Shown here in pieces: positions 5,626 through 46,216 of a DNA stretch of 46,216 bases. The first letter of the stretch is position 1, and each line of letters opens with the position of its first letter. The translations under genes were made by a program, and so were the position numbers. The notes below the pieces were generated by a model. That model was not told where the DNA came from. It saw only the letters and a program-made list of their open reading frames with translations, and did no database searches. The stretch is taken from contig CAMZNJ010000002.1 in assembly GCA_947313825.1 (NCBI GenBank), positions 1 through 46,216 on the forward strand. The letters run 5' to 3'. Source of the stretch: an uncultured Deferribacteraceae bacterium. GTDB lineage: Bacteria; Chrysiogenota; Deferribacteres; CAMZNJ01.

Positions 5626-5731
5626 AGTAGTATCCTCCGATAAAAGTGCTCTTTTTCTTGTTTATTATTTGTCAATACTGTGCAGGTGTGGTTGGTATTG
5701 GGCACGGTATTCGGTTAGTGTGTAGTGTGTT

Positions 5732-7393
5732 TTAAGCTACGCCGTTAATCTTGTCGGCAGTAATTGTTTGTCCCGAGCTGAGGGTAAAGTACACAACGCC
5801 GCCGATGAGCTCAACACCGAGAACGTTTGCCTTGGTGTATTCGGTTACGGGGAGGGGTGCCTTGTTAGCATCAGTGGCGGAAACGTGGTAAGTATATTCT
5901 CCTGTAGCAACATTGTTACCATTTGAGCTTGTGCCGTCCCAGATAAATGAATTCCTGCCGCTAGGTTGTGCTCCAACATTGATTGTATTCACTATGGCAC
6001 CCTGTTTATTTTTAATAATAATCTCCACATGGCGAGAGTTCTCACCTAAGTCGTAACTGAAGGGGTAATTGGTGGCGTCGTTGTAGTGGAAAGAGTTGCC
6101 CGAGTAGGAGATATCTTTGCCCAAAAGAGACGCCGCATCGGAGAGGTTGGAGTAGTTGCTATCGCCAGCGATGGAGGGGATAATGCCGAAGATGGAGTCG
6201 GAGGTAATGATGGCGTCGTTCTCTAATTGGTAGTAGGCAACGCCGTCGATGAGCTCTGCAGCAACAATCTTTTTCTCGTCAAAAGTAGTAATACCCACTG
6301 GGTTGCCACTTTTATCGGTTGCCTCCATTTGGTAGTAGTAGTTGCCAGAGGGGAGGGGGTTGCCCTCATTGTCGCTTGCGTTCCACTGATAACTGCTAAC
6401 ACCAGCTGTGAGGTTCTCCATGGTACGCTCGGAAACAACGTTGCCAGCTGTGTCAAATATGGTGAGCTTGACATTCTCGGCGTCGCCACTTAATGAGTAC
6501 TTAATATCGATACTGCTCTGACCAGTGATTTGCACAAGGGAGTTCGTAAAGCGAACAGTACGCCCAACCAACGCCTCAACATCGTTAATGCTCAGCTCGG
6601 TGCCTGTGCCAACAGCGGCAAGGAGAGCCATGAGTTGCTCGTTGATACTTGTGAGGGCATTCATTTCGGCACTACCGCTACCGTTGAGCCCGATAATATC
6701 CTTCTTGGCAACACGTGTGCCGTCCCCTAGCTCGAAAATGGTGTTGCCGTCGGCGTCGACAGCAACGGAACGAATAATACCCTCAGATACAACAGGGGGG
6801 GAGATATCCTTGCCACTTTGGTCGGTTGCACTGACGCGGAAGAAGTATTTGCCATCGGGGAGGGGTGTGCCGTTGGCAGTGCCGTCCCAAGTGTATGAAT
6901 TGAGCCCGACGGTGGCTGTTACCCCACGTTGCTCAACAACGTTGCCATCTTCGTCAAAAATTGTCAGGGTTGCGGCAGAGGCTGTTTCATCCATGTTGAA
7001 GTTTATCCGAGAGGAAACAGTGCCGTTTTTAATCTCCAACGCACTAACGTCGTAGATGGCACTTTTGCCCACAAAGTCGCTGGCTTGGCTGAGTTCGTCA
7101 AATTGGTTCATCTGTCCGAATGCCGCCGCCATCAGATCCAAACTCTTGTTCATGGCTTGCATCTCGTCTAGCTGGGAAAAATTAGTAACTTGGCTGGTCA
7201 TGTCGGTGGAGTTCTCGGGGTTAAGGGGATCCTGAGCTTTAAGCTGCTCCACAAATATTTTCAGGAAGTCGCTCTGATCTAACGAACCGCGATCAGAGGC
7301 TTTCTCGAAAACAGGAATGGTTGTGCCGTTCACCTCAACGGAGTTGCCACCGGTGTAAAGTGGTGAAGAGAATGTGCTGTTATTGATAGGCAT
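5732..7393 (-). CDS. flgD: Hook-cap assembly protein FlgD with three cap modules
   Basis: FlgD caps the growing hook and is needed for FlgE polymerisation. The N-terminal signature lies at about 41-80 (FLKIFVEQLKAQDPL, then TSQVTNFSQLDEM). The usual C-terminal part, an Ig-like domain inserted in a tudor-like domain, occurs three times: about 107-236, 274-404 and 422-553. Each copy runs from a VGK/VGR/LGK start, through TIFD-GN or an equivalent, a W-D/N-G turn and a Y-ATD strand, to a final DIIG/SIFG/KING edge. Normal FlgD is about 220-240 residues with one module; this one is 553. The ATG at 7393 has AAGGGGG upstream. Upstream neighbour is fliK (117-base gap). Confidence 0.92.
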   Translation of the reverse strand: MPINNSTFSSPLYTGGNSVEVNGTTIPVFEKASDRGSLDQSDFLKIFVEQLKAQDPLNPENSTDMTSQVTNFSQLDEMQAMNKSLDLMAAAFGQMNQFDELSQASDFVGKSAIYDVSALEIKNGTVSSRINFNMDETASAATLTIFDEDGNVVEQRGVTATVGLNSYTWDGTANGTPLPDGKYFFRVSATDQSGKDISPPVVSEGIIRSVAVDADGNTIFELGDGTRVAKKDIIGLNGSGSAEMNALTSINEQLMALLAAVGTGTELSINDVEALVGRTVRFTNSLVQITGQSSIDIKYSLSGDAENVKLTIFDTAGNVVSERTMENLTAGVSSYQWNASDNEGNPLPSGNYYYQMEATDKSGNPVGITTFDEKKIVAAELIDGVAYYQLENDAIITSDSIFGIIPSIAGDSNYSNLSDAASLLGKDISYSGNSFHYNDATNYPFSYDLGENSRHVEIIIKNKQGAIVNTINVGAQPSGRNSFIWDGTSSNGNNVATGEYTYHVSATDANKAPLPVTEYTKANVLGVELIGGVVYFTLSSGQTITADKINGVA

Positions 7394-7510: not shown

Positions 7511-10174
7511 CTAGGCATAGATACCCCTAGGCGAGGAATACCCACTGGAGCTAGCACCCACGTTGGACGGGTCGCCTGAATGGGCTGAGTCGTCGTTGTT
7601 ATCTGATGACGAACGGCTGTTGATGAACTGACGCCTAGCAAGGGCATCCATATGGGCATTGGCTCCGTTGGAATCGGCAAACGCCTCCCCATCGCCACTA
7701 CCGTTGAGGTCGAGCTCCTCCAAAGTAATACCGTTCTCAGCAAGGGCATCCTTCAACTGCTGGAGATTATTCTCAATGGTTTTGTGAGCTTGAGGAGTAT
7801 CCGTCAGAAGGCGGGCATACAAACTGCCGTTACGCTCAACTAACTCCACGTGCACCTTGCCAAGGTTGGCGGGGGTGAGCTGTACCCAAAGACGCTGAAC
7901 ACTATCCTTGCCATTGCTGGCACTGGAGCTGATGAGCTTGCCAAGACGAAGAACATCTTCACCATGGCGAAGGTGTGTGCTTTGGGCACCGTTGGCGTTA
8001 CTGCTGTGGAGCTGGCGAGACTGAAGAGAAGCTTGGGAAGATTGGGCAAATGGCGACTGGAATAAGGACGACTGAGGGAGCTGTGAACCTCCCGCCATGG
8101 CATCAAGTTTGTAGAGGGGGGTGGAGTCGAGGCTAGTCGCTATGCTCATACCCTGACCCTGACCCTGACCCATGGTGGGGCTGGCACTGCTGGGAGCCTG
8201 AGAGGTGGGGGAACCACCATCACCCTTGCCACCGAGACGGGCAGAGATATTGTCCCCTTGGGGGAGAACTGAGAGGGGCTTGCGAGTGGATGCGGTGTTG
8301 TGGGTTGGGTTGTCGCCATCAGAGGAAACCCTCGCACCGTCAGAACGATCGGAACGATCGGAACGAGAGGAACGTCGCGACGATGAACCCTCTAAAGTTA
8401 TGGCTGAGTCGCTACGGGTAATACTTGCCTGTATGGACGACTCAGCATCGCTAAGACCACCTAAGCCCGTAACCACAGCACTCGGCGTTACTTGTGCTTG
8501 TGTTGGCTGTGCTTGAGCCTGTGCCTGTGTTTGCTGTGCTTGCGTTGCCTGTGTTTGCGTTGCCTGTGTTTGTGTTGCCTGTGCTTGAGCCTGTGCCTGT
8601 GTTGCCTGTGCCTGTGTTGCCTGTGTTTGCGTTGGCTGTGTTTGTGTTGCCTGTGCCTGAGCCTGTGTTGCTTGAGCCTGTGCCTGTGTTGATTGTGCTT
8701 GTGTTGCCTGTGCCTGTGTTGGTTGAGCTTGTGTTGGCTGAGCCTGTGTTGGCTGTGCTTGCGTTGCCTGTGCCTGTGTTGCTTGAGCCTGTGCCTGTGT
8801 TGATTGTGCCTGTGTTGGCGTTAGTGTATCGGCTTGGGGCAAGCCTTTAAGATTAAGAGTGCTATTAACATTACTCGATGCCTTATCTGCTTTCAGGTGG
8901 GAAATTTCTTCCCCTTTAGTGGAGTTTACACCTAGCTCCTTTGTTTGAGGCTCTGAGGGCTGGGAAATTTTTTCCCCCTGCGTATCAGTTGTCGCCAAGG
9001 TCGCCTGCTTACCCTGCCCTGAGATGGTATTCATCAGGGTATTGAGTAGGGTATTGAGGGGAGGTGTTGCTGAGTTTTGCCCTGTTGTGGCTTTTGTTTG
9101 TGCAGGGTTTGTTGCCTCATCCGCCGAACCCTCCGCATTAACTTGTACTGTTACTTGCGTAATGGTTGACGTTATTTTGTCAAAAAGGGAGCTAGCACTG
9201 TCGGGTGCGTTTTGGAGTCCCTGTGCTAGTAGGAGCTCAATCTTCTCCATTATGCCCAGTATGTTCTGTGTGTTAGTGGCGTTGATGCTGTTGTTGGTTG
9301 CAGTTTGTGTTTCTGTTGCGGTGATGCTTTGGGGTACGTTGACTGTTTCCCCATGGAGAACAGTTGCACCGTTGAGATTGTTTTCGTTGCCTTCACTGTT
9401 AGCAAGATTGCTGAGGTTGCTGAGGTTATCGAGGTTATCGAGATTGCCTGTGAGCTGTGTGGCGATGTTGCGTAGCAGATGGATTAGGTATGCTAGGTCG
9501 TTTGTTGTGCTGTCCAGTGTTTGGATATTTTCCTGTATCTGCTTATTTGGTATGTCGGCAATGGATACTAGCCAATCTTCGAGGGAGTCTGCTATTTGGT
9601 TGATTACGTCCATGGGAGTTTGTGTGCTAGCTGTTTGTGTGTTTTCGGCTTGTGCATGAAGTTTTTGGTTTTCTGTATTGGTGTTTGTGTTGTCAACATT
9701 ATCTTTTACGGCTACGTCAACAGCTACGTCAACAGCTACGTCAACATTGGCAGATTCTTTTGCGGTTGAGGCAGTTGTTTCCCTTTGGATGTAGTCGGCA
9801 AACTTGCGAACGGTAGGGCTGATGACAGGTTCAGGTTTTGGTGTGTTGTTGTGCCCTTTGGAGGTGTATTCGAGGGCGGAAGAGGTGCTGTTGTGTGATG
9901 GGGTGAAGGTGGGTTGTTTCTCCCACGACTTTGCTGTTGGTTGTGCGAACGGGTTAGGGGCGAACTGGTTAGGGGCGAACGGTTTTGAGTTGTTTGCGTT
10001 TTTGGAGAAGCCGCCGTATGTTGTTTGGTTGTTGAAGTGGTTTGATTTGCTGCTTGGTGGGAGCAAGTACGACAGGAAAGGTGATTTGGAGGGGGCACCT
10101 AGCGAGCTTGATTCACTGCTTTTGGGTGGAGTGAAATCGCTTTTTAGGAAAGAGCTATCAATGTTAAATTTCAT
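7511..10174 (-). CDS. fliK: Flagellar hook-length control protein FliK
   Basis: FliK is the secreted ruler that sets hook length and switches export from hook to filament subunits. The conserved Flg_hook domain is near the C-terminus (about 766-821, LTPANLGKVHVELVE then TIENNLQQLKDAL). The rest is Gln/Ser/Thr/Asn-rich, as in other rulers. Residues about 452-565 are a nearly pure TQAQ/QATQ microsatellite tract, and a DVAV repeat lies near residue 150. At 887 residues it is about twice the enteric length, matching the enlarged FlgE and FlgD. ATG at 10174 is preceded by AGAGGGA. It is the first gene of the hook operon and is preceded by a sigma54-type promoter. Confidence 0.88.
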   Translation of the reverse strand: MKFNIDSSFLKSDFTPPKSSESSSLGAPSKSPFLSYLLPPSSKSNHFNNQTTYGGFSKNANNSKPFAPNQFAPNPFAQPTAKSWEKQPTFTPSHNSTSSALEYTSKGHNNTPKPEPVISPTVRKFADYIQRETTASTAKESANVDVAVDVAVDVAVKDNVDNTNTNTENQKLHAQAENTQTASTQTPMDVINQIADSLEDWLVSIADIPNKQIQENIQTLDSTTNDLAYLIHLLRNIATQLTGNLDNLDNLSNLSNLANSEGNENNLNGATVLHGETVNVPQSITATETQTATNNSINATNTQNILGIMEKIELLLAQGLQNAPDSASSLFDKITSTITQVTVQVNAEGSADEATNPAQTKATTGQNSATPPLNTLLNTLMNTISGQGKQATLATTDTQGEKISQPSEPQTKELGVNSTKGEEISHLKADKASSNVNSTLNLKGLPQADTLTPTQAQSTQAQAQATQAQATQAQPTQAQPTQAQPTQAQATQAQSTQAQAQATQAQAQATQTQPTQTQATQAQATQAQAQAQATQTQATQTQATQAQQTQAQAQAQPTQAQVTPSAVVTGLGGLSDAESSIQASITRSDSAITLEGSSSRRSSRSDRSDRSDGARVSSDGDNPTHNTASTRKPLSVLPQGDNISARLGGKGDGGSPTSQAPSSASPTMGQGQGQGMSIATSLDSTPLYKLDAMAGGSQLPQSSLFQSPFAQSSQASLQSRQLHSSNANGAQSTHLRHGEDVLRLGKLISSSASNGKDSVQRLWVQLTPANLGKVHVELVERNGSLYARLLTDTPQAHKTIENNLQQLKDALAENGITLEELDLNGSGDGEAFADSNGANAHMDALARRQFINSRSSSDNNDDSAHSGDPSNVGASSSGYSSPRGIYA
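8480..8820 (-). repeat. In-frame TQAQ microsatellite inside fliK
   Basis: Array of 6- and 12-base units (ACACAG/GCACAG type on the coding strand) encoding Thr-Gln-Ala-Gln repeats for about 110 residues. Units vary by single substitutions and all preserve frame. The tract lies in the ruler part of FliK, before the conserved export-switch domain. Confidence 0.9.
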
Positions 10175-28001: not shown

Positions 28002-28337
28002 TTGGCGGGTGCTGGTGAGTGCTGGCGTGTTGCTGGCGGTTGCTGGCGGATGTTGGTGAGTGCTGGCGGATGCTGGTGAGTGCTGGCGGGATGCTGGCGG
28101 ATGCTGGTGAGTGCTGGTGCGTTGCTGGCGGATGTTGGTGAGTGCTGGCGGATGCTGGCGGGTGCTGGCGGGATGCTGGTGAGTGCTGGCGGATGCTGGC
28201 GGGATGCTAGTGCGTTGCAGGCGGGATGCTGGCGGATGCTGGTGAGTGCTGGCGGATGCTGGTGAGTGCTGGCGGGTGCTGGCGTGTTGCTGGTGTTGTT
28301 CTAAGTTTCTGGCGTTATGTTTTTTGGAGTGCTTTAA
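28002..28337 (+). repeat. GT-rich minisatellite upstream of aroA
   Basis: About 290 bases (28002-28292) of imperfect repeats of GCTGGCGGATGCTGGTGAGT and shorter variants fill the gap before aroA. Reading frames through it are repeat artefacts. The last 45 bases hold the aroA ribosome site. The array interrupts an otherwise usual gene order. Confidence 0.85.
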
Positions 28338-29909
28338 GTGTTGGGATTTCAGGCCGGAAGCAAGCGGACACGATTTTTACGCGGTATCATCATGCCTGCC
28401 CCCGACAAATCCATAACACACCGTGCTCTTATCCTTTCTAGCATGAGCGTTGGCTCCTCCTTCATTGTCAACCCCCTTGTATCCAAAGATACGACTGCCA
28501 CCATGGATGCTCTTCGTGCCCTTGGTGTGCAGATTAGCCAAAACCAAATGGGCACAACTGTTGTGTCGTCCGGTTATCAGCATTTTACTGAGCCACGTGG
28601 CGTTATTGACTGTTGTAACTCAGGCACCACAGCACGCCTTCTTGCTGGTGTTTTGGCACCGAGTGCGTTCACTACGGTTTTGACGGGGGATGACTCCCTG
28701 CGTGGCAGACCCATGGGGCGTGTTTCAACCCCTTTACGTGCTCTAGGTGCGAATATTTTTGGCAGATCTGATGCCACTCGCCTCCCCATGTGCATTGCCC
28801 CACACTCAGCACACTCAGCACACTCAGCACACTCAGCACACTCAGCACACTCAGCACACTCAGCACACTCAGCACACTCAGCACACTCAGCACACACAGC
28901 ACACTCAGCACACTCAGCACACTCAGCACGTAACTCCTCCCCCGAGGCGACCACGACCATTGTTTTGCGTGGTGAAGTTCCGTCGGCTCAGGTTAAGTCG
29001 GCGATTTTGCTGGCGGGTATTCAGCTTGATGGCAAGACGGTTTACGAGGAGCCCGTGGGGCATGGTAGTCGCGATCATACCGAGCGTATGCTCCCCATTT
29101 ATGGTGCTGACGTTTCCATTTCGGACGGTGCTGGTGTTGCTGGCGGTGTTGCTGGCGGTGGTGCTGGCACTAGTGGTTTGCGGGTCATTACTGTTTCCGG
29201 TGGTGCCCCCCTTGTTGGCACCGGCGTTCACATCCCTGGGGACATATCTTCGGCGTCGTTTTTCATTGGTGCAGTATTTTTGTGGTCAGGGTCTTCCATC
29301 AAGGTTCAGGGTGTTGGCTTAAACCCGACACGTATCGGTTTCCTTGATATTCTGGTTCGTATGGGTGCAGATTTGAGTTATGAGATTGTTGGCGACTCCC
29401 TTGAACCGTCCGGATTTATCGATGTTGAGCATTGTGAGCTCTCGGGTGTGGATGTTTCCCCTTTGGAAGTTTCTGCCATGGTGGATGAGATACCTCTTTT
29501 GATGATGCTTTCTGTTGTTGCGAGTTCACCGATAACTATTCGCGGTATTGGTGAGTTACGCCTCAAGGAGAGCGATCGCATTAAGTCCATGGTGTCGAAT
29601 TTGGCGAAAGTTGGTGTTGAGTCGGAATTCTTTTACGATAGTGCTGGCACGTCTGGCACGTCTGGCACGTCTGGTTCGGTATGTGAGTCCATTGTTCTGC
29701 ACCCCCGTCGTCGCGAAGGTGGTGCATTTGTGGGGCTACCATCTTCGAGCACCGTCGTTCTTGAGTCTTACCACGATCACCGCATTGCCATGGTGAATAT
29801 TCTTCTTGCAAAATACTTCCATGACAACATTGCTGTGGACGACATTACCCCTTTGGAAGTTTCGTTCCCCGGTTTTTTGCAGAAGCTTTCCACCTTGGAG
29901 CGGTCATAA
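28338..29909 (+). CDS. aroA: EPSP synthase AroA with tandem-repeat insertions
   Basis: AroA (5-enolpyruvylshikimate-3-phosphate synthase) joins PEP and shikimate-3-phosphate in aromatic amino acid synthesis. The conserved sites are all present: DKSITHRA (23-30), NSGTTARLL (94-102), GDDSLRGRPM (117-126), SAQVKSAILLAG, PGDISSASFF, DEIPLL, LRLKESDRI and YHDHRIAM. At 523 residues it is about 90 longer than usual because of three inserts: 14 HSA triplets at 156-197, a GVAGGVAGGGAG run at about 262-272, and GTSGTSGTSG at about 436-445. Each lies where a surface loop is expected, so activity is probably kept. GTG start with GGAG 8 bases upstream. Coding strand is GT-rich, unlike its neighbours. Followed by cmk. 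Confidence 0.93.
   Translation: MLGFQAGSKRTRFLRGIIMPAPDKSITHRALILSSMSVGSSFIVNPLVSKDTTATMDALRALGVQISQNQMGTTVVSSGYQHFTEPRGVIDCCNSGTTARLLAGVLAPSAFTTVLTGDDSLRGRPMGRVSTPLRALGANIFGRSDATRLPMCIAPHSAHSAHSAHSAHSAHSAHSAHSAHSAHSAHTAHSAHSAHSARNSSPEATTTIVLRGEVPSAQVKSAILLAGIQLDGKTVYEEPVGHGSRDHTERMLPIYGADVSISDGAGVAGGVAGGGAGTSGLRVITVSGGAPLVGTGVHIPGDISSASFFIGAVFLWSGSSIKVQGVGLNPTRIGFLDILVRMGADLSYEIVGDSLEPSGFIDVEHCELSGVDVSPLEVSAMVDEIPLLMMLSVVASSPITIRGIGELRLKESDRIKSMVSNLAKVGVESEFFYDSAGTSGTSGTSGSVCESIVLHPRRREGGAFVGLPSSSTVVLESYHDHRIAMVNILLAKYFHDNIAVDDITPLEVSFPGFLQKLSTLERS
28803..28928 (+). repeat. Fourteen in-frame nonamers in aroA
   Basis: CACTCAGCA repeated 14 times without interruption; unit 11 is CACACAGCA. 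Encodes (His-Ser-Ala)10, His-Thr-Ala, (His-Ser-Ala)3. Near-perfect identity suggests recent expansion. Confidence 0.95.
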
Positions 29910-34542: not shown

Positions 34543-36234
34543 ATGTTTTCAAGGGTAAATACTGCTGCATTAATAGGGATTCAAGGTGTAGGGGTTAATG
34601 TTGAAGTGGATATTTCATCTCAGGGTTTGCCGGGGTTCTCCATCGTTGGACTAGGGGACAGTGCCGTACGGGAAAGCCGCGACAGACTTCGCTCAGCACT
34701 CAAAAATATGGCACAATCGCAACTATTCCAACGCCCCATCACCATCAACCTCTCCCCTAGCAGTTTCGCCAAAAGTGGCACCCATTACGACCTAGCAATG
34801 GCAGTGGGATTGGTGTGTGCCAGCGATGACGACCTCGCAACGTCGCCCATGTTGGAGAGCAGTTTTGTCCTCGGTGAGATAGCCCTAGACGGCACACTGA
34901 CGCCTGTGAGTGGTGTTTTGCCCCTTGCCATGTATGCCAAGAATGAAGGGTTTCAACAGATACTACTCCCGCAAAGCAATGTTGACGAAGCAGCTTTAGC
35001 CGGTATAGATTGTTACGGTTTCAAAACACTTCATGATGTCGTACTATTTTTCCGTGAAGGTGGTGGCAAGGGTAACGGCAACGGTAACGGTAACGGTAAC
35101 GGCAACGGTAGCGGTGCGACTAGCAGTTACACATTCGTACCGGGTCGTACCCATGGGCACGATACCACTGTTTTGCCGGAAAACACTAACACTACTCAAG
35201 GCAACGGTCGCTTTGAAAACGACTTTATGGACGTGAAGGGGCAGGATATGGGCAAACGTGGTGCCCTGATAGCCGCAGCAGGTATGCATAACCTTCTGCT
35301 CATCGGCCCCCCCGGTAGCGGCAAAACCATGATAGCGAACCGAATACCCCACATCATGCCCAACATGACGATGACGGAAGCCTTGGAAACAACAAGCATC
35401 TACTCGTTAGCAGGGTGGGAACGTATCGCACACTCGGGAACTACTCGCAGTGGTGCTGGCATTATTACGCGTCGTCCGTTTATCGCTCCCCACCATACTT
35501 CTAGCTCGGTGGCAATTGTTGGAGGTGGCAGCAACGCCATGCCAGGGAGTGTTTCGTTTGCACACAATGGTGTCCTATTTTTAGACGAGTTTTTGGAGTT
35601 TGGTCGTGCTGTTATCGAGGTTCTTCGCCAACCCATGGAGTCGCGTAAAATACTGGTTTCACGTAGCAAAAGAGTGGTGGAGTACCCCGCTAGCTTCATG
35701 CTAGTCGCTGCCAGCAACCCTTGCCCATGCGGACACTACCAAGACTCACAAAAAGAATGCCTATGCCCACCGTCCGCCGTACTCAGGTATCGAAGCAAAC
35801 TGTCGGGACCCATTTTAGACAGGATAGATCTCCATGTAAAAGTACACTCAGTATCGGTAACAGAGCTCATGGGGGAGCATGGCAATCACAACAATGCCAC
35901 CAACAACACTGGGAACAGGAATGACTCCACAGAGATGACCTCCACTGCCATGAAAATACAGGTGGACAACGCTTACAATATGCAACAAAAACGGTTCGCC
36001 GCAACAGCCATTAACCACAACTCACAAATGTCATCCGCAATGACAAAAGAGGTATGTATCCTCAGTAAAGAAGTACACAGCATTCTGCACAAAGCTGTGG
36101 ACAAATACGGATTAACAGCACGGGGGTACGACAAAATACTACGAATATCAAGAACAATCGCCGACCTCGACCAATCCGAAAATATACAATCCATGCACGT
36201 ACTGGAAGCTCTTCAGTATAGATTGACAGATTAG
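34543..36234 (+). CDS. comM: ComM/YifB-family Mg-chelatase-like AAA+ ATPase
   Basis: A 563-residue AAA+ protein. In Vibrio, ComM is a hexameric helicase that drives branch migration during integration of DNA taken up by transformation. Present are the N-terminal ChlI-like part (INLSPSSFAKSGTHYDL), Walker A GPPGSGKT, Walker B LFLDEF, NPCPCGHY and the zinc-like Cys set, LSGPILDRIDLHV, and the C-terminal Mg-chelatase domain (SRTIADL). Two low-complexity inserts are visible: GKGNGNGNGNGNG at about 178-190, encoded by GGTAAC/GGCAAC hexamers, and an Asn/Thr-rich run (HNNATNNTGNRND) near 450. AGGGG precedes the ATG. radC begins 10 bases after the stop. Confidence 0.92.
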   Translation: MFSRVNTAALIGIQGVGVNVEVDISSQGLPGFSIVGLGDSAVRESRDRLRSALKNMAQSQLFQRPITINLSPSSFAKSGTHYDLAMAVGLVCASDDDLATSPMLESSFVLGEIALDGTLTPVSGVLPLAMYAKNEGFQQILLPQSNVDEAALAGIDCYGFKTLHDVVLFFREGGGKGNGNGNGNGNGNGSGATSSYTFVPGRTHGHDTTVLPENTNTTQGNGRFENDFMDVKGQDMGKRGALIAAAGMHNLLLIGPPGSGKTMIANRIPHIMPNMTMTEALETTSIYSLAGWERIAHSGTTRSGAGIITRRPFIAPHHTSSSVAIVGGGSNAMPGSVSFAHNGVLFLDEFLEFGRAVIEVLRQPMESRKILVSRSKRVVEYPASFMLVAASNPCPCGHYQDSQKECLCPPSAVLRYRSKLSGPILDRIDLHVKVHSVSVTELMGEHGNHNNATNNTGNRNDSTEMTSTAMKIQVDNAYNMQQKRFAATAINHNSQMSSAMTKEVCILSKEVHSILHKAVDKYGLTARGYDKILRISRTIADLDQSENIQSMHVLEALQYRLTD

Positions 36235-36244
36235 TAGTTTATCT

Positions 36245-37369
36245 ATGGCGGGCGGTGCAAGTATGGCAGGTGGAGCAGGTGGGGCAGGCGGTGCAGGTAT
36301 GGCAGGTGGAGCAGGCATGGTAAATGCGGACGAAAAGAGTATCAGGGGCAACAGCGAAGATACTCACAAGCAAGAACATGACGACAACAACCGTATGCCG
36401 TGGTCTGAATACGAACATGGTACACGCGAACATGGTACACGCATGCCTGAGGCAACCACCGACCACCTCGAAAGGGGAGAAGACACAACAACAACCATAA
36501 CAGAGAGTGCCGAAAACCATAACAATCAGGAGATAGCCCGACTACTGAGTAGGATTAACTCGTCGAAACTAGCACCATCGCCAGCACCTGAGCCATCGCC
36601 ATCACCATCGCCATCGCTAGTACCATCACCTGAGCCATCACCTGAGCCATCGCCATCGCCATCACCATCGCCATCACCATCGCCATCGTCAGCACCTGAG
36701 CCAGCACCGAAACCACACCACCTTGGGCACCGTCAACGCCTGAAAGACCGCTTCCTACTAAACAGCGAAAGCCTAGCCAATTACGAAATACTAGAGCTTC
36801 TCCTAGGGTACGTAATACGTGGCAGAGATGTGAAACGGGAAGCAAAAGACCTAGCCAAAGCATTCCCCGACTTATCACTCATACTGCAAGGGGAGTTCGC
36901 CGAAATACGTGGACTAGGCACTGAAGCCGAAATATTAATGAAAGTCATAAAAGAGTTTGGGGACAGGATAGATAGGCAAAAAGGGCGAAAAATAGTGTAC
37001 ATCCGAAGTGCCATGGATTCGTACAACTATGCCAAAGGCTTCATATCGTTCCAAAAACGTGAAATATTCATTGTGCTACTAATGACCAACGACAACGAAC
37101 TACTCGGACACAAAATCATGAACACAGGCACAGCAGACAGGGTCGCCATCTACCCCCGAGAAGTTATTGCCGAAGCAATAAAGTTTGGGGCAAGTCGCAT
37201 TGTAGTTGTCCACAACCACCTCGGCGGGAGCCCCCAACCATCACCACAAGACAAAAAACTAACCTCAAAACTCAACGACGCCTGCAATGTTTTAGAGATA
37301 TTCCTTGTTGACCACATAATAATCGCAGAAGGAACGTACTACTCATTTCGCGAAGGGGGCATGCTTTAA
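36245..37369 (+). CDS. radC: RadC-family JAMM/MPN+ protein with repeat-rich N-terminus
   Basis: A 374-residue protein whose last 220 residues are a complete RadC. A helical region (GHRQRLKDRFLLNSESLANY, then LELLLGYVIRGRDVK) is followed by the JAMM domain with the metal motif HNHLGGSPQPSPQD (His323, His325, Asp336). The biochemical role of RadC is unsettled; links to recombination and mobile-element biology have been reported. The first 155 residues are low complexity: AGGAGGAGGAG repeats at 1-24, then an acidic/His-rich linker, then PSPSPEPSPS repeats at about 110-152. The start is uncertain: no ribosome site stands before 36245, whereas GGTGGAG precedes an ATG at 36317. Close behind comM, likely one operon. 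Confidence 0.85.
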   Translation: MAGGASMAGGAGGAGGAGMAGGAGMVNADEKSIRGNSEDTHKQEHDDNNRMPWSEYEHGTREHGTRMPEATTDHLERGEDTTTTITESAENHNNQEIARLLSRINSSKLAPSPAPEPSPSPSPSLVPSPEPSPEPSPSPSPSPSPSPSSAPEPAPKPHHLGHRQRLKDRFLLNSESLANYEILELLLGYVIRGRDVKREAKDLAKAFPDLSLILQGEFAEIRGLGTEAEILMKVIKEFGDRIDRQKGRKIVYIRSAMDSYNYAKGFISFQKREIFIVLLMTNDNELLGHKIMNTGTADRVAIYPREVIAEAIKFGASRIVVVHNHLGGSPQPSPQDKKLTSKLNDACNVLEIFLVDHIIIAEGTYYSFREGGML

Positions 37370-42923: not shown

Positions 42924-43300
42924 AATACGCCTTCAGACGGACTGCTCTGCCATAGCGTTTCCCCTTGCTAAGATGGTGCTGTTGTGCCAAGAATCGATGG
43001 ATTCGTCTGTTTTAATTCCTGTACATCATATGAGAATGGTGTTATAGTATACTCTAGGGTAGAAATATCGTTGAGTTGCTGCTATTCCCTCCCCCGAGAA
43101 CAAATCATACTGAGCACGCTGTGGGAAAAGCGAAAGCAATACTCCTCAATAATACTAACACAGTTTTAAAAAATGAAATAAAATATGAGCAGTAAGATTG
43201 ATCAGGAAGGCATCAATAGTGCATGCTGATACAGAAGATATTCTTTGGTGCAAGGTAATGTTCCTCGACCACTAAAGGATGAGAGAAGTAAGGGGCTTGC
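42924..43300. other. Gene-poor stretch before the defence remnant
   Basis: 377 bases without a convincing gene. A frame on the plus strand (43185-43321, one internal TGA at 43227) gives [20 protein letters not shown] and overlaps the patatin start by about 20 bases, as operon genes often do. It may be the decayed 3' end of a former upstream gene, but I cannot name it. Confidence 0.4.
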
Positions 43301-43493
43301 ATGGGTAATACTTTCAGAATACTGAGTATTGATGGTGGAGGGATTCGAGGGGTATACCCCGCTCATATTCTTCGCTGTATTGAGGAACGCCTTCAGATAA
43401 ACCTGTTCGAAAAGGCGTATGGGTATATATGGGAACACTATTAAAGATCTGGGGAATGATGATGCATATGTTGCCCCAATAAATTTGAAGTAA
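43301..43493 (+). pseudogene. Patatin-like phospholipase, N-terminal remnant (CapV-like)
   Basis: The ATG at 43301, with AAGGGG upstream, opens a 47-codon frame reading [20 protein letters not shown] and then [13 protein letters not shown]. This is the start of a patatin-like phospholipase with the DGGGxRG oxyanion motif. The GxSxG nucleophile motif that should follow within about 30 residues is absent. The frame stops at 43444; a +1 shift would continue for 16 codons (KDLGNDDAYVAPINLK) to a stop at 43493, so an internal deletion plus a frameshift is likely. Patatin proteins of this kind act as membrane-degrading effectors in CBASS defence or as stand-alone lipases. It ends 27 bases before the ATPase gene. 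Too short to work. Confidence 0.7.
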
Positions 43494-43519: not shown

Positions 43520-46096
43520 ATGGTTTCATCTACAACAGAGTGGTTAACTCAAAGACCAAAGTGGTTGCAAGTCGCCGCCAAGCACCTGCTTGAATCCGGA
43601 GATCTGAATGATGCCACTATTTTAGAACTGTCATTGCTGTGTCGGCAGGAAGCCAATGATGAGTTTCCTGATATCGATTGCAGCATCCCAGCCGGGGTTT
43701 TGGATACGCATGATTCTGAAGAAATACGTTTACGCTCCATCAGTGAAGTTGCTGGGGTAAACAAGCTGGCTCCTCGGACGCCACTCTATTTTGGCGAGAG
43801 CAATATGGCTGTTGTCTACGGTCTTAATGGCTCCGGCAAATCCGGCTATGTCAGGCTTTTGAAACATGTTTGTGGATCCCGTGATAGTGTCCGTGGTCAA
43901 CTGCATAAAAATGTATTTTCTACAGAAGAAATAGCTCAGAAAGCGAAAGTCTCCTTTCTCAAGAACAGTACTCCGACGGAATATGAATGGGCAGGCGGCT
44001 CGGAAGTGTGCGACGACCTTTATTCCGTTGATATTTTTGATACTTCATTTGGCCGGGTCTTTATGGGGAGCGAAGACGAGGTCAGATACGAACCTCCGGT
44101 CTTGTCCTTTTTCAGTAGATTGATCGATGTTTGCGAGAGAGTTGCTGGAAAGCTTGATGCCAAAATCGGGACACTAAAATCAAAAATGCCGAGCATATCA
44201 AGTGCTCTCCGTGGCTCCACTGGAGCTGCTTGGGTTGAAAAACTCAGCTACAAAACAACGACTGAAGACGTTGAATCCAATTGCTCTTTCTCGCCGGAAA
44301 ATGAAACAGAACTACAGGATCTTCAGAAAAGAATTTTTGAAACATCTCCCGCTGACAAAGCCAAACAACTCAGGACTAAAAAAAGTCATGCTGATGCCCT
44401 TATTAGTGATGCCCAGACTTGCCTTAATCAACTGTCTGATGAGAATTGCAAAAGAATCATCGTTGCCAAAAAGAAATCCATTTTGAAAAAATCGGCCGCC
44501 GATGCAGCGGCAAAGGATGTGTTCAACGGTGTAAAGCTCGAAGGCGTTGGATCTGATGTCTGGAAAGAACTATGGAGTGCTGCACGAAAATATTCTGAAG
44601 AAGTGGCATATATCGGACAGGAGTTTCCCCATGTTCAGGATGACTCTGTCTGTGTACTGTGTCATCAGCCTTTATCTGAAGAAGCCAAGCAACGGTTTAC
44701 CACTTTTGAATCGTATATAAAAGGAGAAACACAAAAACAGGCTACAGACGCAGCCAGAGATGCAAAGAAAGCAATTGATGCTTTGCCGGATATTCCTAGT
44801 GCCGAGGCTCTGAAAACAAAAATTGACGCTGCTGGTATTGAGAATCAGGAAATTATCAAGGCGCTGAATGATACCTTCACTACTCTTCAAGATAGAAAAG
44901 CAAAAGTATCGTTACTTGATTCAGAAGATGCCTTGGGCGTCGCCAACCAATCCCCTCAATGGATTGAGGAGGTTCGCAAGATTTCACAAGACTATGAGGA
45001 CAGTGCCAAGAAATATGAAGAAGATGCAGAAAATGATAATCGAGTTGAGTTACAGGGCAAATTAAAGAACCTTCAGGCAAAGAAGTGGCTCGCTGAACAG
45101 AAAGTAACAATTCAGGAAGAGGTTAATCGCCTGCAGGCTCTCGATCGACTTCAGGAAGCCAAAAAGAAAACCAGCTCCAAAGCACTATCCAGGAAAAAGG
45201 GAGAGTTGGCAGAGGCTCTTATCACAGATGCTTTTGTTCAACGCTTTAACCATGAGCTCAAAGCCTTAGGGGCATCTCAGCTGAAGGTTAAACTCATAAA
45301 GTCCAAGGTTTCTAAAGGCAAAGTCCTTCATACCCTTCAGTTGGATGGAGCCAACCACAGTCTCAATGAAGTCCTAAGCGAAGGAGAGAACCGTATCATA
45401 TCGATTGCGGCATTTCTTGCTGATGCCACAGGAAGGACTTATCCGGCTCCATTTGTGTTTGATGATCCGATTTCATCCCTTGATCAAAATTACGAAGAGG
45501 CAGTTGTTCGACGTCTCTGTTCTATCGCCTCCAAGAGACAAGTCATCATATTCACTCATCGACTCCCACTTTTGGTGATGGTTCAGGACTATGCCAAAAA
45601 GGAGAACATAACGCCTGAAGTAGTATATATCCGAGAAGAATCATGGGGAACTGGTGAACCGGGAGATATTCCACTCCAAGTTAAAAAGCCCATAAAAGCA
45701 CTCAATACGTTAACCAATGATAAGCTTCCAAAAGCAAGGAAACTACTTAATGAAAGTGGCGTTGATGCTTATGAAACAGAAGCGAAGTCTCTCTGTAGTG
45801 AATTCAGGATTCTTCTTGAGCGAATGGTGGAACTCGAACTCTTGTCGGGTGTTGTCCAGCGGTACCGACGGGCAATAAATACGAAGGGGAAAATTGAAAA
45901 CCTACCCAAAATCTCTGAAGCGGACTGCAAATACTTTGACGATTTGATGACAAAGTATTCGAGATATGAGCACCCCCAGCCACCTGAAGCACCAGTTCAA
46001 CTTCCGAAGCCAGATGAGCTTGAAACAGACTTTAACGATTTAAAAAAATGGCAGGCGGAATTTAAAAAGAGGTTGTTGATGCCAGCTCTGAAGTAG
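43520..46096 (+). CDS. ABC/SMC-like AAA_13-type ATPase with CxxC hook (PrrC/RloC-like)
   Basis: A large 858-residue ATPase with a split ABC/Rad50-like head. Walker A is GLNGSGKS (101-108), the signature is LSEGE (619-623), Walker B is [11 protein letters not shown] (645-655) and the switch His is His680 in IFTHRLP. Between head halves lie long charged helices with CVLC (378-381), a zinc-hook-like turn as in Rad50 and RloC. The last 170 residues are helical with conserved-looking [11 protein letters not shown] and YSRYEHPQ. PrrC and RloC carry a HEPN-type anticodon nuclease at this place; whether one exists here is unproven. GGAG lies upstream of the ATG. Base use is unlike the left 42 kb and no repeats occur. 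Flanked by broken defence genes, so a phage-defence role is inferred. Confidence 0.8.
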
Positions 46097-46216
46097 TCGT
46101 CTATGCAAAGCTCCCCAAAGGTTTTTTCATCCCCACTCCTGTCGGTAACTATAACCCCGACTGGGCTATCTCATTCAAAGAAGGTGCTGTTAGGCACGTT
46201 TATTTCGTGGCAGAAA
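46066..46216 (+). pseudogene. Type III restriction enzyme Res subunit, C-terminal fragment (runs off window)
   Basis: An open frame with no start codon begins after a stop at 46063-46065 and overlaps the end of the ATPase gene. It reads [17 protein letters not shown], then [11 protein letters not shown] and VRHVYFVAE up to the edge. This is the typical endonuclease end of type III Res proteins, where NPDWA and VAE(TK) form the PD-ExK nuclease core. The helicase domains that should precede it (about 700 residues) are absent, so this is a 5'-truncated remnant. The ATPase gene appears to have replaced or been inserted into a type III restriction locus. The right part is outside the window. Confidence 0.75.

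Follow-up and report, generated by a model that had tools for sequence, protein, structure and literature searches.

A predicted Rad50-like anticodon nuclease of the RloC family beside the apparent remains of a type III restriction system

RloC proteins, as defined by Davidov and Kaufmann, are 658-897 amino acids (aa) long and carry both a coiled-coil insert with a CxxC motif and the sequence pattern Arg-X3-Glu-X36-52-His (PMC2610378). Mutants of the G. kaustophilus protein have shown that tRNA cleavage depends on this triad and is held in check by the hook (PMC2610378). According to Anantharaman and co-workers, RloC and PrrC both have the HEPN fold (PMC3710099). Linkage to restriction-modification (R-M) genes was recorded for RloC in general at a frequency of 8/73, and rloC of G. 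kaustophilus itself adjoins an hsdR relic, the same situation as that of the gene described here (PMC2610378). RloC of A. baylyi can be activated by an inducer of DNA breaks without its R-M protein (PMC3874168), such that an orphan copy of the gene can be functional.

The window, the whole 46,216 nucleotide stretch of an uncultured Deferribacteraceae genome analysed here, contains a gene at positions 43520-46096 of the forward strand, on which its parts and the flanking relics given below also lie. It consists of one open reading frame with an ATG start, an 858 aa product and zero internal stops. The N-lobe of a split ABC ATPase contains the Walker A sequence GLNGSGKS (residues 101-108; 43820-43843), of which G101, G106 and K107 are found in all homologues spanning these positions, and the other lobe comprises the signature LSEGE (residues 619-623; 45374-45388), the Walker B and D-loop sequences (residues 645-655, including DDPISSLD at 648-655; 45452-45484) and the H-switch histidine H680 (45557-45559). 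Residues S620, E621, D648, D649, P650 and H680 are each invariant in 39/39 homologues. Between the lobes, a long-helix (coiled-coil) insert (residues 193-582; 44096-45265) bears the zinc-hook motif CVLC (residues 378-381; 44651-44662), and both cysteines, C378 and C381, are retained in 38/38 homologues that span the hook. The full-length AlphaFold2 model, based on 20 sequences (mean pLDDT 82.9, pTM 0.55), arranges these as a helical N-terminal stretch, the ABC N-lobe, the long helices with the hook between them, the ABC C-lobe and a C-terminal helical domain. Translation, alignments and model thus bear out the first-pass annotation of this DNA, which had described an intact frame with an ABC-type ATPase head, a mid-coil CVLC hook and a helical C-terminus.

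Each element of the RloC definition, namely the ABC motifs, the coiled-coil insert with CxxC, an Arg-X3-Glu-X36-52-His pattern and a length of 658-897 aa, is present in this protein. It matches the AAA_13 model (E=8.1e-22) and, across residues 4-851, the PADLOC model PDLC04893 with a score of 1039 bits; the PrrC model aligns across 40 residues only (E 0.0028). The gene is a new member of a family already catalogued by PADLOC under the candidate label PDC-S06, of which only passing mentions were found in the literature. RloC-type proteins that match PrrC by way of its C-terminus likewise fall under the PDC-S06 models.

The identity of the protein's C-terminal portion is suggested by its pattern of conservation. 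Beyond residue 686, the only columns conserved in 39/39 homologues (38 sequences once those at 90% identity or more were removed) are Arg763 (45806-45808), Glu767 (45818-45820) and His818 (45971-45973), followed by G712 in 38 and R781 in 37. These correspond to Arg320, Glu324 and His356 of PrrC, and to Arg692, Glu696 and His737 of G. kaustophilus RloC. They are arranged as Arg763-X3-Glu767-X50-His818, and spacings of X3 and X48-52 are maintained across all 39 homologues.

Profile comparison extends this likeness beyond the triad, to the predicted RloC/PrrC-type anticodon-nuclease domain (residues 686-851; 45575-46072). For this purpose 51 RloC-type and 32 PrrC proteins were gathered, and the sequence through the H-switch, which includes the ABC head, was trimmed. 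The RloC-type set was selected by motif geometry (exemplified by L029, with C276/C279, R667 and E671) together with the AAA_13 and PDC-S06 models, and does not include the characterised proteins of G. kaustophilus and A. baylyi. When aligned with hhalign, the family matched the 51 RloC-type C-terminal domains over 128 columns (E=1.8e-9, score 60.2), whereas none of 60 block-shuffled versions scored above 24.3 and the reversed profile scored 18.6. Earlier hhalign comparisons with shallow alignments gave matches reaching the D-loop or H-switch at most; the domain match needed the 51 RloC-type sequences and 39 family members. The family profile did not match that of PrrC alone significantly (E 0.067), so the link between the two runs via RloC, the RloC-type profile itself matching that of PrrC at E 6.8e-6. 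In the pairwise alignment with RloC, His is placed on His, but the R-X3-E segment is shifted by one helical turn. When the family, RloC-type and PrrC sequences are aligned jointly and without forcing, the triad falls into shared columns, with Arg in 38/38, 46/48 and 18/18 of the three groups respectively, Glu in the same proportions (38/38, 46/48 and 18/18), and His in 38/38, 36/48 and 18/18; hence His is missing at this position from 12/48 RloC-type sequences.

The first-pass annotation, which could put no name to this domain, had noted that RloC and PrrC carry an anticodon nuclease at this position, and the triad and profile now point to that identity. Its further proposal of a new effector domain does not survive: a new effector fold is ruled out by the invariance of the triad and the profile homology to RloC-type domains. 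The structural comparison it had suggested gave a mixed outcome. When modelled alone, the domain is confidently predicted to be helical (AlphaFold2 pLDDT 86.8), and in the full-length model it comprises four main helices (residues 724-746, 748-774, 800-814 and 831-850). However, Foldseek searches of the C-terminal model against the PDB and BFVD gave no significant match to a solved or viral structure (lowest E values 0.58 and 0.22). HEPN entries such as 1wol, 1ufb and 7bxo appeared at E 1.7-2.6 only. The HEPN assignment consequently rests on motif and profile, not on structure.

To judge from these sequence comparisons, the gene very probably encodes a Rad50-like anticodon nuclease of the RloC family, belonging to a distinct subgroup of approximately 850 aa within PDC-S06. 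Direct membership of PrrC is ruled out by the protein's size and hook. A rather unlikely alternative is that the same architecture and nuclease fold serve a different target, the protein being an ABC-ATPase-gated HEPN-type RNase that cuts some other RNA. HEPN RNases have varied targets (PMC3710099), and the subgroup forms a clade of its own, albeit at a weak support of 0.49. It is also distinguished by the additional near-invariant Arg781 (45860-45862; 37/39) and by S, N or C four residues ahead of the His, in a column that differs in RloC-type and PrrC proteins. Nevertheless, the same triad is kept in the same order throughout the subgroup, and the characterised Rad50/PrrC-like ABC-HEPN proteins cited here, PrrC and RloC, cut anticodon loops (PMC2610378, PMC3710099).

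Many homologues were found among restriction and defence genes, including type I and type III R-M, BREX and Qat, as the first-pass annotation's view of the gene as a defence system would lead one to expect; the loci counted in this survey are not a count of separate events, and most of them come from plasmids and IMG/VR contigs, where defence genes are abundant in any case. On a Moellerella plasmid (L028), the gene lies within an hsdM-hsdS-[gene]-hsdR operon, at the place taken by prrC in L077. A Mycolicibacterium plasmid (L026) has the order methyltransferase, helicase, [gene] (mod-res-[gene]), with a gap of less than 20 bases, and L002 has res-[gene]. For most other members, as for RloC in general, the immediate neighbours include no R-M gene. 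In the viral contig IMGVR_UViG_3300027985_001840 (L083, 4980-8860), the order is HsdM, an unlabelled ORF, [gene], PrrC and HsdR, the PrrC call depending on L171, which is the same contig at the same position; two anticodon-nuclease-type genes, one RloC-like and one PrrC, are thus adjacent in one apparent type I operon. Members of the subfamily are also present on resistance plasmids, beside tmexCD-toprJ on Klebsiella pHNAH8161B-3 (L023) and near qacA and mupA on Staphylococcus epidermidis pC100MK1 (L022), so that a defence gene and drug resistance travel together.

Less expected than any other feature is the arrangement [rloC-like]-sbcD-sbcC, which recurs among the closest relatives. Among the six closest, sbcD and sbcC directly follow the gene in three (L003, 3-6588; L081, 5001-12090; L082, 4992-12100), with ATGA overlaps in L003 and L081. 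In a fourth (L004), the order is HsdR, a decayed Res C-terminus, [gene], a decayed sbcD start (5661-5840, E=2.7e-15) and then a cytosine methyltransferase. Upstream of the gene are an SNF2 helicase, a GHKL ATPase, HNH and Vsr in L081, and BrxL in L082; in L025 (3030-10616), an exonuclease and an AAA ATPase of sbcC size precede the gene, and Qat follows it. Apart from sbcD-sbcC, no recurring housekeeping neighbourhood was seen among the homologues. The arrangement raises the possibility, which we consider unlikely, that the nuclease in the closest clade works as a module with SbcCD, the window copy being an escaped, orphaned part. The Mre11-Rad50 pair would then sense or process phage DNA ends, or those left by restriction, and thereby trip the tRNA nuclease. 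This idea is given a low weight because the gene may merely hitchhike with mobile sbcCD; the term SbcCD occurs in none of the papers listed by a joint literature search.

The Rad50-like head and hook, with the sbcD-sbcC genes adjoining L003, L081, L082 and L025, might also suggest a non-toxic DNA-repair SMC protein similar to SbcC or Rad50, but this is scarcely credible given that the approximately 165 aa C-terminal domain of the protein, with its invariant catalytic-type triad, has no counterpart in SbcC or Rad50 (PMC2610378), that a separate true SbcC is present wherever SbcCD adjoins the gene, that the relatives occur in restriction and defence contexts, and that no SbcC/Rad50 model is among the 25 NCBIfam matches listed.

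Within the window, the gene is flanked by relics. Upstream is the truncated N-terminus of a patatin-like phospholipase (43301 to approximately 43431), which has a broken frame and matches Pfam PF01734 at E=0.0017, below the curated cut-off. Directly between this and the gene is what remains of the 3' end of res, a type III restriction gene (approximately 43432-43493). It was identified by aligning the DNA with the corresponding end of res in L002, the local alignment score being 40, relative to a maximum of 34 in 500 shuffles. The phospholipase stub is joined out of frame to the res relic within 43301-43444, a sign of earlier defence genes there. Downstream, a type III Res endonuclease domain is represented by a truncated, internal fragment (46075-46216; PF19778, E=1.7e-13 and 1.3e-13), which runs into the end of the contig at 46216, beyond which the right side of the locus is not visible. 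A search of the 86%-complete genome revealed no other Res endonuclease domain and no N4/N6 methyltransferase belonging to the same Pfam family as type III Mod. These absences and the flanking Res pieces indicate that the gene lies among the remains of a type III restriction system, together with a phospholipase stub; the two broken defence neighbours of the first-pass annotation are real. Equally, the gene lacks the repeats found elsewhere in the window, as had been claimed, Tandem Repeats Finder detecting no array past 41120. Many short tandem repeats occur elsewhere (8485-8819, 28003-28295, 28801-28929, 35065-35115 and 36571-36703) in what is a small genome of 1.26 Mb, and several lie inside coding genes, such as a Gly-Asn run in a ComM-like protein and a Pro-Ser run in a RadC-like protein.

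Such surroundings could mean that an intact frame has been left in a decaying island and no longer works. There is wreckage on both flanks, the restriction partner is gone, and the protein's native C-terminal tail has been cut at the junction near 46090. That the gene is dying in this way is nonetheless distinctly improbable, as every catalytic, ATPase and hook residue is intact. Purifying selection is also evident (dN 0.09 against dS 0.89), with a dN/dS relative to L081 of approximately 0.10 for the complete gene and 0.09 for the C-terminal domain, although such values are averages across the entire divergence and are compatible with very recent decay.

Synteny with the sister species ends at 42936, just ahead of the gene. 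In the sister genome (G001, contig 49; L191, 4143-4466), a different sequence is found beyond the shared flavodoxin-ferredoxin gene, and the site therefore looks like a variable spot in the genus; only 340 bases of that contig remain beyond the shared gene, so an empty site is not readable there. The codon usage of the gene is the third most deviant among 26 genes tested (GC3 0.407). Its closest relatives come from a Nitrospinota metagenome-assembled genome (MAG; 81%), an IMG/VR contig (83%), a Myxococcales MAG (72%) and a gammaproteobacterial symbiont (63%), the MAG labels possibly being binning errors on short contigs. Deviant codon usage and scattered hosts fit lateral gain. No homologue was found in phage records; IMG/VR contigs do contain homologues, and a scan of IMG/VR with the L028 protein as query gave no match. 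The acquisition proposed by the first-pass annotation is hence favoured by the synteny break and codon usage, but not its recency, since the nearest relatives already lie at a dS of approximately 0.85, which provides no date.

An RloC-type anticodon nuclease at this site would probably be a single-gene phage-defence protein in a decayed defence island. The defence contexts of its relatives and the triad thereby leave the first-pass annotation with a probable single-gene, horizontally moving, Rad50/RloC-like defence protein, minus the new effector. By analogy with RloC and PrrC, the zinc hook and coil would hold the predicted nuclease off until it is triggered by DNA ends or a compromised restriction enzyme, at which point two heads would pair and hydrolyse ATP. 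The paired C-terminal domains would then cut tRNA in the anticodon loop, translation would stop, and the phage would fail along with the cell. With its restriction partner wrecked and no N4/N6 methyltransferase found, the protein would have to act alone, as the RloC proteins of G. kaustophilus and A. baylyi have been proposed to do.

A candidate new effector is thus replaced by a testable RloC-type assignment. Much of PDC-S06 becomes readable as anticodon nucleases, given that the RloC/PrrC triad is present in all members studied of its approximately 850 aa part. A lead on how RloC is triggered is also offered by the gene's neighbours, namely type III res and sbcD-sbcC among its nearest relatives and, within a single hsd operon, prrC.

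Of the known systems, RloC of G. kaustophilus and A. baylyi (Davidov and Kaufmann 2008, Klaiman 2013) shares with this protein the split ABC ATPase, the coiled coil with a CxxC hook, the C-terminal Arg-X3-Glu-Xn-His domain and the size range; its activity is Zn-responsive tRNA anticodon cleavage with wobble excision. The protein described here differs in having approximately 850 aa with a helical N-terminal extension ahead of the first ABC strand, a Glu-His spacing of X48-52 in its family rather than the X40 of G. kaustophilus RloC, a CVLC hook where the RloC-type sequences gathered have CPFC, and a different residue four positions before the His. The hsdR relic adjoining G. kaustophilus rloC is of type I, whereas the res relic here is of type III. 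PrrC has the same triad columns and ABC motifs, but is short (341-416 aa), has no coiled coil or hook and is tied to a type Ic hsd locus; the 858 aa protein has a hook, and only type III relics beside its gene. SbcC and Rad50 share the Rad50-like head and zinc hook without the C-terminal nuclease domain, whereas the gene here encodes this extra domain and has no sbcD partner in the window. The models of PDC-S06 match the full length of the protein, which would be called as such, this candidate label extending over at least two groups: RloC-type models of approximately 690-790 aa, and models of approximately 850 aa.
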